Assembly (NCBI GenBank): GCA_949130485.1
Contig: OX422196.1
Span: 5,128,889-5,192,888 of the forward strand
Reading direction: 5' to 3'
Source of the DNA: Agelas oroides
Taxonomy: Eukaryota > Porifera > Demospongiae > Agelasida > Agelasidae
DNA length: 64,000 bases
Shown: positions 32,001-38,000 of the stretch, in pieces
Layout: each line of letters begins with the position of its first letter
Position numbering within the stretch: position 1 is the stretch's first letter
Translations under genes and position numbers: made by a program
The notes under the pieces: model-generated
What the model was told of the DNA's origin: nothing
What the model saw: only the letters and a program-made list of their open reading frames with translations
Databases searched by the model: none

Positions 32001-35000
32001 TAATTACTAGGTGAATACAGGCATTTTGGGACCAGCAGGTTGCAATGTGTGCATGGTTAGCAAAAGCTAAAGCTAATATATTGATGGGATTGTTAATGAG
32101 GTGGCTAATTCTAACAAATTATCAAGCTAATAGCCTTGTGATAATGTCAGTTAAAGCTAGCCGGCCTGCTAGATGCACAGCAATTTTCAATTTTGTAGCT
32201 TCGTTATGCTTGATTTATCCGCCAGTGTTTGAATTAGTCCATAAAAGCATATCTTTATAGTTGTACATGTTTCAAGCCTATAACATGGCCCGAAAAACCT
32301 ATCGGGATTTGCAGTTGGATTGTCAATACACCCCTCTATAGAACATTTGAAGGGCTGAGAGGTAAAGTGGACTAACCCACATATGCATCAATATGGCAAA
32401 AAATACATGGTAGGCTACCTAATGGTCAGCCCAATCCCTCAGAAAGTTCATACTGCAAGGTAGGTCAACGCGCACTGTTTATAGAACTTTAAAGTTTACG
32501 CGAAAGTAAATTCAATGTTTTCTCGAGAGGTAGAGTGGACTATTCTTGAGATTGACCAATGAGGGCGTGAGATGATGATGATGTCATACGTACACGTGCG
32601 AGTGCAAGTAAGAACACGCACAAGATAGTATTGTACTCTTGTAGCTGTTGCTATGTCTGCTGCTCGTGGCGCTGATGGCGTTGGTGTTCGTTCTGCAGTA
32701 GCTTCAGTTAACTCTCCAACTTCCCCAAGCTCCTCCTGTGAGAGTGAAACTACAAGATCGAGTAGAAAGCGATTGAGAAAAGAGGATCAATGGAAGTGTA
32801 CAAAGCGGAAGAAGCTACGAAATTCAGGAGAGTCATACACTTCTAAAGCTGGAAAACAGGTACTAAACATAACTGCTAGTCTGTGGATAATGCTAAGAGC
32901 ACGTAAATAAACTAGCACAGACGGACAAGCTTGAGTTTGACTATGCAGACACCATAACCAGCAGTCTGGACTTCAAATTCGGGCTTGTCCAGAGTAGATA
33001 CTTTTTAGAGGCTATAATACTACAAAACTGGGTCCAAGCCAGTGCTTTATAAGCTGAATTTGCATTCTTTCTAGGTTGATGGGAAAGTAATGTGTGAGGT
33101 GTCGTGTGAATGTGCTTTGCGGTGTTTCAATACTTTGACAACAGAGCAGAGGCGCACAATTTTCACGAAATTCTGGGCGCTATGTAACTTTGATATTCAA
33201 AACACCTATCTATGTGGATGCGTGAAAGTCTTACCAGTTGCACGGCACTACACATCCGAATCGAAACGAGGAAATACAAGGGTGTATTATGTGAACAACG
33301 GTGAGAGGTCTGTCAGGATCTGCAAGACGGCCTTCTTGCGTATTTATGGAATATCACATGGTCGACTGTCACGGGTCCTGGCGGGTCAGGCTGAGCAAGG
33401 GGGACTTCCCAAGCTAGACACTCGCGGACGCCATGAACCTCCTAATAAGACATCAGAAGAAGACAAGGCTTTTATTCGGCAGCACATTGAGTCTTTTCCA
33501 GTATATGAGAGCCACTACTCTAGAAGTGATAATCCCCATCGTCGATACCTTTCACCTGACCTTTCACAGGCCAAAATGTACCACCTATATAAGGAGAAAT
33601 GCAATGAGAATGGTTGCAGACCTGTCAGTGATTGGGTTTACAGGAAGACTTTTTGTGAGGAATTCAATCTCTCGTTTGGAAGGTATGTCACATACGCAGA
33701 TAATACACACACTTCCCACCCACCCACAGCCATGTGCTCACAGCCCACTCATTTCATACTTGCATACATGCACGCACCGACACCCACAATGCATGCACAC
33801 AGCTGCATACACACACACATACGCACACACACATGCACACACACGCACACGCACACACACACGCACACACACATACACACACACGCACACACACACACAC
33901 ACGCATGCACACACACACACACACGCACACACACGCACACACACACGCACACACACACGCACACACACACGCACACACACGCACGCACACACACACGCAC
34001 ACACGCAGCACGCACACACACGCACACACGCACGCATACACACACGCACACACACACGCCGCACACACGCACGCACACACGCAGCACGCACACACACGCA
34101 CACACGCACGCATACACACACGCACACACGCACACACACGCACACACACACGCACACACACACGCACACAAACACACACACCACACATGCGCATGCATTC
34201 ACCAGCACATGCATGCACACACCATACACACACAGCACCATGCACACACACAGCATGCACGCACATGCACACGCATACACACAGCACAAACACATACACA
34301 CACTGCTAATGCAAATGCCTTTACATCCCTTTCTCAGGCCTAAAAGCGACACCTGCAAGACATGTGACGAAATGAAAATTCGTGTAGAAAGTGAAACAGA
34401 TCCAGATACCTGTCGCCTGCTCAAGGCTGAGTGGGAGCTCCACCATCGAAAAGCTGAAAGATCGTACCAACAACTCAGAGAAGATTCAGCCCTGGCAAAG
34501 AGCAACCCCGATGTAGACACGATAACGTTCGACTTGCAGCAGTCTCTACCAACCCCAGTTCTCACAACAAGCATCGTCTTCTATAAGAGACAACTGTGGA
34601 CTTACAATCTGGGAATTCACTGTTGCGGAACTGGGACAGGCTACATGCACATGTGGCATGAGGGTGAAGCTTCGAGGGGTTCCAAGGAGGTTGGCTCCTG
34701 TGTTTTGACGTATCTAAAGGACCATCCTACAAACGCCTCACACCTCATCATGTACAGTGACAGCTGTGGTGGGCAGAACCGAAACATCAATACCGTTTGC
34801 TTGTGGCTTAATGTTGTCAGTAATGACAACTACAGCTATACCACTATTGACCACAAGTTCATGGTCAGTGGGCATTCATACCTCCCCAATGATCGGGATT
34901 TTGGGGGAATCGAGTTGGCAAGACGTCGCGCATCATCTCTTTTTGTCCCCGATGACTGGTGTGCTCTGGTTGAAAATGCACGAAGGAAGAATGCATTTCA

Positions 35001-38000
35001 GGTGCGAAGAATGCACCAGACCGATTTTGTCACCAGTAGCTCGCTAAAAGCAATGATTGTGAATCGAAAAGTTAACACCAATGGGGACAAAGTGGAATGG
35101 TTCAAAATCCACTGGATTCGTGTGGATAAAGCTTCTCCATTTTCCTTTAAGTATCGCTATACACTGAATACCTTGGAGGAGTGGAAAACTGTCAACATTC
35201 GCCCTAAGCGAAAAGGCCGCCCTTCTGACATTGGAAGACCTAACTTGCCACCTCTCTACACTGCCCCACGGCCTATCAAAGCAGCAAAGCTAAAAGATCT
35301 AAAAGATCTGCTGTGCTATGTTCCACCTATCCACCATGCATTTTACAATAACTTGGCTGCATGTGATGAGGCTGAAGAGGGTGAAGAGGATGAAGAGGAT
35401 GAGGATTAAACTCTGAACCTTCCTGTAGTAAAGTTGAGTGGGTGTTGAGTTGTTGTTGTCATCCTGTAATCAAATTTGCAGTTGAAAGGTTTCAAATTAT
35501 TCACTTGAAAGACTTCTTTGGGGATGCTAAACATGTCTGTGGGGTGAAATGTTTGATAAAAGTGATAATGAATTTAGTACAGCATGTCAACTTTAAGCTG
35601 TTGATTTGAAAAAAAGTGTACATGTGGGTTAGTCCACTTTACCTCTCAGCCCTTCATTTATGCCTTCGAGGTTCACATTCTTATTGCCGAGCACATTAGC
35701 ACGAGGCTTTGAATGGGGGATCTATTCTCGCAATGTACGTGTGTACGTACGTACGTGTCGGTCACGCTCAGGAATGTCAATTTGCACTCATTTGCACTCA
35801 CGTGCACGCTCAGGAACTCATGCGTCACGTGCACCGAAGATGGAGGTCGAGGACAGGGAAGAACGGCGCTTCTTGACAATGGAGGACGGGAAGGACAGCG
35901 CGGCTGGTCCTCCACAACGTACGTGTTTTGCAGAGTTGAGTGCTGAACGCAGCCGACGGTTGGCGACACTGAGAAAGAGAAAGCAACAAAGTCAATGTAC
36001 AAAAGAAGCCAAGAGGGCAAGAAGAGAACAAGAGAAAGTGCAAAGGAAGAAAGCACGTTGTGGAGAGTCTTCACAAGCCAGGTATAAATTATGTTCACTT
36101 TCATGTTCGATTCAACCGTAGTCCTTCGGACTAAATTATTTGTGACACCTGCTCCACTTGGCCCATCCGCATGCGCAATGCGCACATACGCACTGGCACG
36201 GTACGGCGCAAGGCATCATGCGCATGCGTATTCCTAGCATTATTTCTGATTTCTGCAGCTCCTGAACAGTCACACGCAGTATCCACTCAGACGCAAAAAT
36301 CCGTCTGTAAGCCAATAACTGTAAAATCTTGCATGCTATTGGAGTTACATTGTTATGCATTGTTGTTGTTTGCCATAATATGTATTGTTTAGGCATTAGG
36401 TGACATTAGTAGTTGCGGGAAGCCCAGATATTTATGCTTGTGAATTGTTCAACCATGCAGAAGTATTTTTTATGCATTCACCAGATGCAGATAAGTGCAC
36501 ACAGAGTACCTCATCTGATGTGGACAAGGAAGTCCAGGTGGATGTGTTAGGCATACCAGGTATAAGACAATCTTCTATAGTTGAAGTGTGATTCGAGAAT
36601 AATTGCAGGAGAAACAGGCAAAGTAGTTGTACAAACTATAGTGAGTGCATTTATGCCTGTTGTTGTGAGTTCGCGTGATTGTCTGTTCATCATAGATGAA
36701 ACATATGTAGCCTAAGTAATTTCATTGTAATTGCACTCATTTCTGTTTCTATTGACACTAAGTATATATCAGAGTAGTTGTCTTACTTATTGGTGTTGAG
36801 CATACCCTGACATCAATGTCCCCCCTCCCAGGGAAATAACATGCTTTTTGTTACCTAGGTAATGCATACCAAAAAGGCTGTACTGATAACTATACTACCA
36901 TTCCCCTCCACAGATGTGTATACCATCTTTCAACACTTGCAAGAGCTTAAGAAGGGCCAATACAATATTCAATGTCAACTATCTGCAAAAGGTCCAACAA
37001 CCAACACCAACACCAGCAGTGCAACATGCATCATCAGTCTTTTCTCCGCTCCAGCTGGACCTGTCCACATCTATATCAGACCCAGATGTGGCAGAGTGCC
37101 TAAGCATCCTAAGTGGCGATGATTTGTCCATTCCAAGTGGGTATCCAAGCCAGCAGGTCTCCATGGTCTCACCTTCTGTGTCCCCACCATACCAGTCAAA
37201 ACCAACCACAATGTTTCCTCATCAACAGCAACCCAGCACTAGCCATTATTTTCCCGTCCCTAAGACTCCACCGAGAGTCAATGTCGAGAAGGTTGCATTT
37301 CCAGGGACACCGCAAGAATGTAAAATAGAGAGAATTATAAAGCAGCCTCTCTACCAAGATATCACCAACGCCGGAAGGCTAGTGATTGCACTGGCTCGGC
37401 AAGTTTTCTTTGGCAATGAAGTAATGTGCACCATGGGCACCTTGGTGAATATGATGGATTGGACGAAGAGAAACTGGCGCAAATTCACGATATAATCTTG
37501 TGCATGTACCGCCCAAATGACGGAAAGGCACTGTGTTCCAAGTGCAGGGAAGCAATTGGCAAGAAATACCCATCAATACGCAGCAAGGCCTCCACAAACT
37601 GTTCATTGATCACATGGTACTTTGTAGCTAAGACATTAGCGATGGAACTTTACTTTGTACTTTGTTCAATAAAGATATTGTTGTGTTGACATGTTTGGTC
37701 ATCTATCAGGTAGCTGTTGGTAGGTTTCTTTCTAGTGTGTGGGAGGTACGTACCAATGTAACCATTACCTAGGCAGCACAAATCAATATTGCTCATACCT
37801 CCCTTGTACAGTGGCATTGCCTAGGTAACAGGTTATACTGGTGGGTGGTCTTGCACATTGGTCTACACCCAGACACCATTGTGTAAAACAATCACTCCCC
37901 AGGGAAACATTTACTATGAGTTGCCAATTTGTGAACTGCCAATTACGCTAGCTAGCTAGCTACGTAGTAGTATATCAACTCCTGGGGAGTGGTTGTTTAA

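Follow-up and report, generated by a model that had tools for sequence, protein, structure and literature searches.

Does a DUF7869-type protein move the DNA that encloses it? The question is raised by a 3307-bp element (32349–35655) of the sponge Agelas oroides, which lies in a 64,000-nucleotide stretch of its genome (GenBank assembly GCA_949130485.1, contig OX422196.1, positions 5,128,889–5,192,888 of the forward strand) that we refer to as the window. A first-pass annotation, made from the letters of the window, had described a whole DNA transposon built around such a protein. That description is supported by our analysis of copies, target-site duplications (TSDs), empty sites, relatives and a low-confidence structural model. 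In all likelihood the element is a DNA transposon of the autonomous, cut-and-paste kind, with a single gene predicted to encode a 628-residue transposase of the DUF7869 group with a triad of three aspartates (DDD).

Architecture of the element

The element is bounded by a perfect 34-bp terminal inverted repeat (TIR), and its termini read GAAGGGCT...AGCCCTTC. The first-pass annotation had given inverted ends of about 35 bp with ATTT on both sides, and its boundaries were right. Its intact three-exon gene for 628 residues is likewise reproduced by our splice model, in which GT–AG introns separate three exons that together form a stop-free frame. This is the sole gene found in the element. Conservation of the triad codons is given below for alignments A1 (19 rows) and A3 (13 rows).

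32345–32348, no strand: left copy of the target duplication, ATTT (read from the sequence)
32349–32382, + strand: left TIR, 34 bp, perfect match with the right end
32525–32542, + strand: inner copy of the end, 18 nt at 94%, 176 bp inside the left end (repeat comparison)
32653–32859, + strand: exon 1 of the putative transposase gene (splice model)
33075–33682, + strand: exon 2, with the Cys-rich start CECALRC at residues 80–86 (splice model; conserved in sister families)
33683–34337, + strand: intron 2, for the most part a CA/CG microsatellite (sequence and splice model)
34338–35409, + strand: exon 3 including the stop codon, with the putative catalytic core (DUF7869 region) and an acidic tail
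34531–34533, + strand: codon of D337, first Asp of the putative triad (D in 12 of 13 filled A1 rows and 11 of 11 in A3)
34759–34761, + strand: codon of D413, second Asp (D in 15 of 15 filled A1 rows and 12 of 12 in A3)
34891–34893, + strand: codon of D457, third Asp (D in 14 of 15 filled A1 rows and 12 of 12 in A3)
35622–35655, − strand: right TIR, 34 bp, perfect match with the left end
35656–35659, no strand: right copy of the target duplication, ATTT (read from the sequence)

With up to two mismatches allowed, the 14-bp tip of the ends occurs in the window only at the two ends of the element, both times without mismatch. The tip alone is weak evidence, because 9 of 100 shuffles gave at least two such matches. 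The inner copy of the end may be a second binding site for the transposase. Two related elements, C15:3260 and C14:3913, have a weaker counterpart of it at 169 bp, in which 7 of 30 positions are mismatched. Exon 2, with its Cys-rich start, may form the DNA-binding part of the protein. The microsatellite of intron 2 (33700–34310) is kept in the copy on contig C2 described below, and similar repeats occur at many places in the genome. An Rfam scan found nothing in the window at gathering scores.

Copies of the window family in the host genome

The host genome comprises 141 contigs with a total of 259 Mb, and our DNA search of it scored 40 candidates. Three further copies of the window family were found, on C2, C3 and C1, which makes a family of four; the remaining matches lie mostly at query positions 1387–1959, the microsatellite of intron 2. 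The C2 copy (C2:9714407–9718227) is 97% identical in DNA to the window element and carries about 560 bp of additional sequence close to its right end. It stands between two copies of AGTT, and is thus an example of the several copies sharing the ends and bearing their own 4-bp repeats that the first-pass annotation had proposed to look for. In the C3 copy (C3:14466975–14470026; 95–97% identity) the tip of one end is missing, and the truncated C1 copy (99% identity over 1.1 kb) lacks one whole end. In exon 3 the C2 and C3 proteins are 99–100% identical to that of the window. Since both copies are nearly identical to the window element, the family must have spread recently.

The copies bear on whether the element is a dead relic, which we consider rather unlikely. 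A relic would agree with a family of four found copies in which one lacks the tip of an end and another a whole end, but the ends, TSD and reading frame of the window element are all intact, and the C2 and C3 copies keep the high DNA and protein identities given above.

Two side observations concern this family. One retrieved region (L002) holds a window-family copy (779–4593) and, 0.6 kb from it, a miniature inverted-repeat transposable element (MITE) with related ends (5228–5451); two related stretches on C18 (L085 and L086), about 5.5 kb apart, are without that copy and that MITE. In the window itself, positions 11670–11972 hold a decayed fragment with internal stops that resembles exon 2 (E 2.7e-11, 37% identity) and is therefore a second trace of the family.

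Sister families, MITEs and target-site duplications

A protein search of the host genome gave 76 exon-level matches at E ≤ 0.01, and from those that could be retrieved we stitched 21 homologue regions, most of them with no more than 1.5 kb of flank. Of the 21, 12 carry a GAAGGGCT-type end on one side or both. These 12 comprise six coding elements with both tips intact, two with both ends and one damaged tip (C22:4610 and C3:14467), and four that are one-ended. Exact 4-bp duplications flank five of the six elements with intact tips: ATTT at the window element and C15:3260, AGTT at C2:9714, and AAAT at C15:3803 and C2:9508, the last of which carries an internal deletion in its gene. The only mismatch is at C14:3913 (AATT/ATTT).

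In exon 3 the sister-family pieces L016–L020 and L022 are 53–60% identical to the window protein, and one short C-terminal piece is 46% identical. Changes between sister families and the window are most frequent at third codon positions (on C10, 210 against 121 and 95 at the other two, in 337 codons). Four other sister regions show the same trend, with saturated synonymous divergence. Since third positions vary most, we conclude that the sister-family genes have been held under selection.

Ends of the same kind also stand on short non-autonomous elements. With up to three mismatches, the 30-bp end pattern has 331 forward and 265 reverse matches genome-wide, 596 together, against none on either strand for a reversed control; the worry raised at the outset that the TIRs might occur nowhere else can be set aside. 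We collected MITEs from the first 30 matches to the pattern, all on C1 and tallied from forward ends, with three one-ended loci dropped and lone reverse ends untallied. This gave 16 distinct both-ended MITEs; AATT or ATAT is exactly duplicated at 15 of them, and the remaining one has AATT/GATT. One end of a 208-bp MITE (L067) matches the 30 bp of the window element without a difference, and AATT stands on each side of this MITE; the two MITEs compared with that element (L056 and L064) have only the ends in common with it.

The six coding elements with intact tips, the 16 MITEs and one more MITE make 23 both-ended insertions. Exact 4-bp duplications flank 21 of these, against 8.5 expected when right flanks are re-paired, a count that none of 100,000 shuffles reached. 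The duplicated sequence is AWWT in 20 of the 21 and AGTT in the remaining one.

For seven insertions we joined the flanks with a single 4-bp copy and searched the genome for the product. A match spanning the junction was found for three of them. The C2:9508 insertion matched at 180 of 180 positions, a MITE at 150 of 164, and the window-family copy on C2 at 154 of 163 columns, its empty site having one additional A next to AGTT. The at least one empty site that the first-pass annotation had called for thus exists, at insertions other than that of the window.

A further observation concerns a second type of end. The region L039 holds, at 979–3278, a DUF7869 element whose different end occurs 34 times in the genome and not at all in the control. 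Ends of this type often form opposed pairs with a spacing of about 200–230 bp, suggestive of a second MITE family.

Bacterial relatives

Scanning the GTDB collection with alignment A2, we obtained 51 stretches that matched the patterns, and 11 bacterial loci (L072–L082). Eight of the loci have frames of at least 577 codons, one of them reaching past the contig end, and the two proteins scanned were both assigned to DUF7869 (E 2e-15 and 3e-18); NCBIfam scans of the same two returned no name for this bacterial insertion element. The gene is bracketed by an inverted repeat of 36–61 bp in 8 of the 11 loci. Placing the start of the element at the first G that follows the A/T letters makes 15 of 16 flanks AWWT; in several cases the inverted repeat extends into these letters, which may therefore belong to the ends themselves. 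Exact duplication pairs are present in three of the eight elements (L074, L075 and L081), which is not significant (0.06).

Seven of the 11 records are titled as metagenome-assembled genomes (MAGs), and L076 lies on a 147.8-kb contig of the named strain Desulfocicer vacuolatum DSM 3385. Each bacterial genome has one or two matches, so that the case for mobility in bacteria rests on the ends. Among 297 genomes drawn from the phylum of L076, one had a match, and that one was its own. IMG/VR scans gave no relative, and one bacterial protein tried in each of a plasmid and a phage collection found no match.

In a tree, ten rows on the window side (including L036) are separated from fourteen others, which are the bacteria and L039–L041, by a split with support 100/100. 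The tree gives no direction of transfer because its root is the midpoint.

The protein and its putative catalytic core

The Pfam profile of DUF7869, PF25273, has a cut-off of 26 bits and is filed as being of unknown function. Three distant homologues in the host genome, L039, L040 and L041, match it with E-values from 2e-19 to 5e-23. Nearer to the window, the profile gives 32.1 bits for a sister-family protein (C22:4610816) and 37.8 and 44.6 bits for two of the next branch (C5:7267672 and C23:2359532); L019, 60% identical to the window protein in exon 3, scores 22.3 bits, under the cut-off. Pfam and NCBIfam scans returned no named transposase family. Sub-threshold matches of the window protein to Pox_D5 (E 0.053 for the whole, 0.015 for exon 2) and to TAF1D were judged to be chance, as were the best sequence matches in the PDB (0.53 to ENPP4 for exon 3; 0.22 to myosin-binding protein C for profile A1).

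The first-pass annotation had pointed to conserved acidic blocks at D337, D413, D457/D459 and E464 as a DDE-type core. D337, D413 and D457 are conserved, whereas D459 and E464 vary, without conservation outside the clade of the window. We modelled exon 3 with AlphaFold using ten bacterial relatives as further input. The predicted order in model residues 59–218 is strand-strand-strand-helix-strand-helix-strand-helix, a further short helix lying just ahead of the last one; residues 225–356 were not confidently modelled. D337 falls within strand 1, D413 closes strand 4, and D457 opens the short helix that follows strand 5. This placement of three Asp is the one known in RNase H-like transposases.

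The 50 Foldseek matches listed include MutS, Argonaute/Piwi, IstA, Mos1, spliceosomes/Prp8, UvrC, YqgF and RNase HI, all of which we take to contain RNase H-like domains; a mitoribosome chain and HerA–NurA are among the 50 as well. TM-scores by query are low (0.14–0.29). The outcome is consistent with an RNase H-like fold and is no proof of it; the conserved aspartates and the low-confidence model support an RNase H-like DDD core in the DUF7869-type protein.

Is the protein the transposase?

A passenger gene, carried by a transposon that a different enzyme moves, was considered and rejected as highly improbable. The MITEs show that such ends can be moved in trans, but no other gene was found in the element, sister families likewise have a protein of this family enclosed by similar ends, and distant and bacterial relatives lie between other inverted repeats. 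The conservation of the DDD triad also stands against a passenger.

Several results weigh against our assignment. The window's own insertion is among the four of seven for which no empty site was found, and its right flank is a repeat. A GAAGGGCT-type end was not found in 9 of the 21 stitched homologue regions. Three of the nine (L039–L041) bear inverted repeats of different sequence, at which no exact 4-bp duplication was read. L010 and L011 differ from the window by 0, 1, 0 and 2, 2, 1 changes, and are too alike to reveal selection alone. PF25273 gave no match to the window protein even at E 10, although relatives pass the cut-off; the window protein is a homologue of DUF7869 members and not a member by score. 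The AlphaFold model has a mean predicted local distance difference test (pLDDT) score of 53.9 and a predicted template modelling (pTM) score of 0.50, so that the fold prediction invited by the first-pass annotation does place the triad where RNase H-like transposases need it, but with low confidence. Foldseek against the PDB returned 860 matches at E ≤ 10 and none at E ≤ 0.001, the best being 0.0035.

On balance, the element is very probably moved by its DUF7869-type protein. The N-terminal part of this transposase would bind the 34-bp ends, and D337, D413 and D457 would hold metal ions in the RNase H-like core. After freeing the element, the core would join the ends, staggered by 4 bp, to a target that is mostly AWWT, and repair by the host would then yield the 4-bp duplication.

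Relation to named superfamilies

The first-pass annotation knew of no named superfamily with this protein and a 4-bp duplication. That statement is unsafe, because Sola is named and fits the features testable here. Published descriptions, as excerpted, give Sola a DDD transposase, a 4-bp TSD, TIRs of 11–1124 bp, elements mostly of 2–9 kb and occurrence in bacteria and metazoans (PMC10741241), and give Sola2 AWWT duplications such as ATAT, AAAT and ATTT (PMC3627910). The 4-bp duplication (21 of 23 both-ended insertions) and its AT-rich AWWT sequence (20 of 21 exact duplications) are Sola2-like. Sola-like are the conserved D337, D413 and D457, on the basis of the alignment and the weak model, the 34-bp TIR and 3307-bp length of the window element, which lie within the Sola ranges, and the occurrence in bacteria and metazoans. 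One Sola2 protein differs in having 888 residues against 628 (PMC3627910). On these published descriptions Sola, in a Sola2-like form, is the named superfamily that fits best, and the element would probably be filed there.

DUF7869 transposons could instead form a superfamily of their own, so far unnamed, with a DDD triad, 4-bp AWWT duplications and members in bacteria and eukaryotes; we hold this only tentatively. It would comprise two deep clades, one bacterial and eukaryotic in which many ends may be G-rich, the other, that of the window, seen here only in a eukaryote and with GAAGGGCT ends in its best-studied branch. The two deep clades of the tree, with bacteria in one, and the lack of a named transposase family in the Pfam and NCBIfam scans favour such a superfamily. 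So does the absence of any mention of DUF7869 from the open-licence literature searched, a scope that gives it little weight; motif queries of that literature returned no transposon paper by title. Against it, Sola as described matches every feature that could be tested: TSD, DDD, TIR and size range, host range and, for Sola2, AWWT.

Other named groups were rejected. A TTAA target duplication is typical of piggyBac, Kolobok and Sola3, and no TTAA stands in the flanks of the 23 both-ended insertions. Chapaev (CMC), excerpted as having a 3- to 4-bp TSD, a DDE transposase and invariable CAC...GTG termini (PMC4079192), has the short TSD in common and is ruled out by the termini found here. Ginger1 and Ginger2 share TSD length and TIRs; the TGTNR termini, CCGG or RTATAY targets and Gypsy-like integrase described for them in excerpts of PMC2836005 were not seen here (for the integrase, in Pfam scans). 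IS481EU is described as having TGT...ACA ends (PMC10045372, in part).

Implications

For a protein family whose function is filed as unknown, the movement of DNA becomes a likely concrete job. Genes annotated as DUF7869 become candidate transposon genes, at which the ends, 4-bp duplications and three aspartates are the features to look at. The bacterial members, whose genes are free of introns, would be convenient enzymes for study, and they tie bacterial elements to eukaryotic ones.

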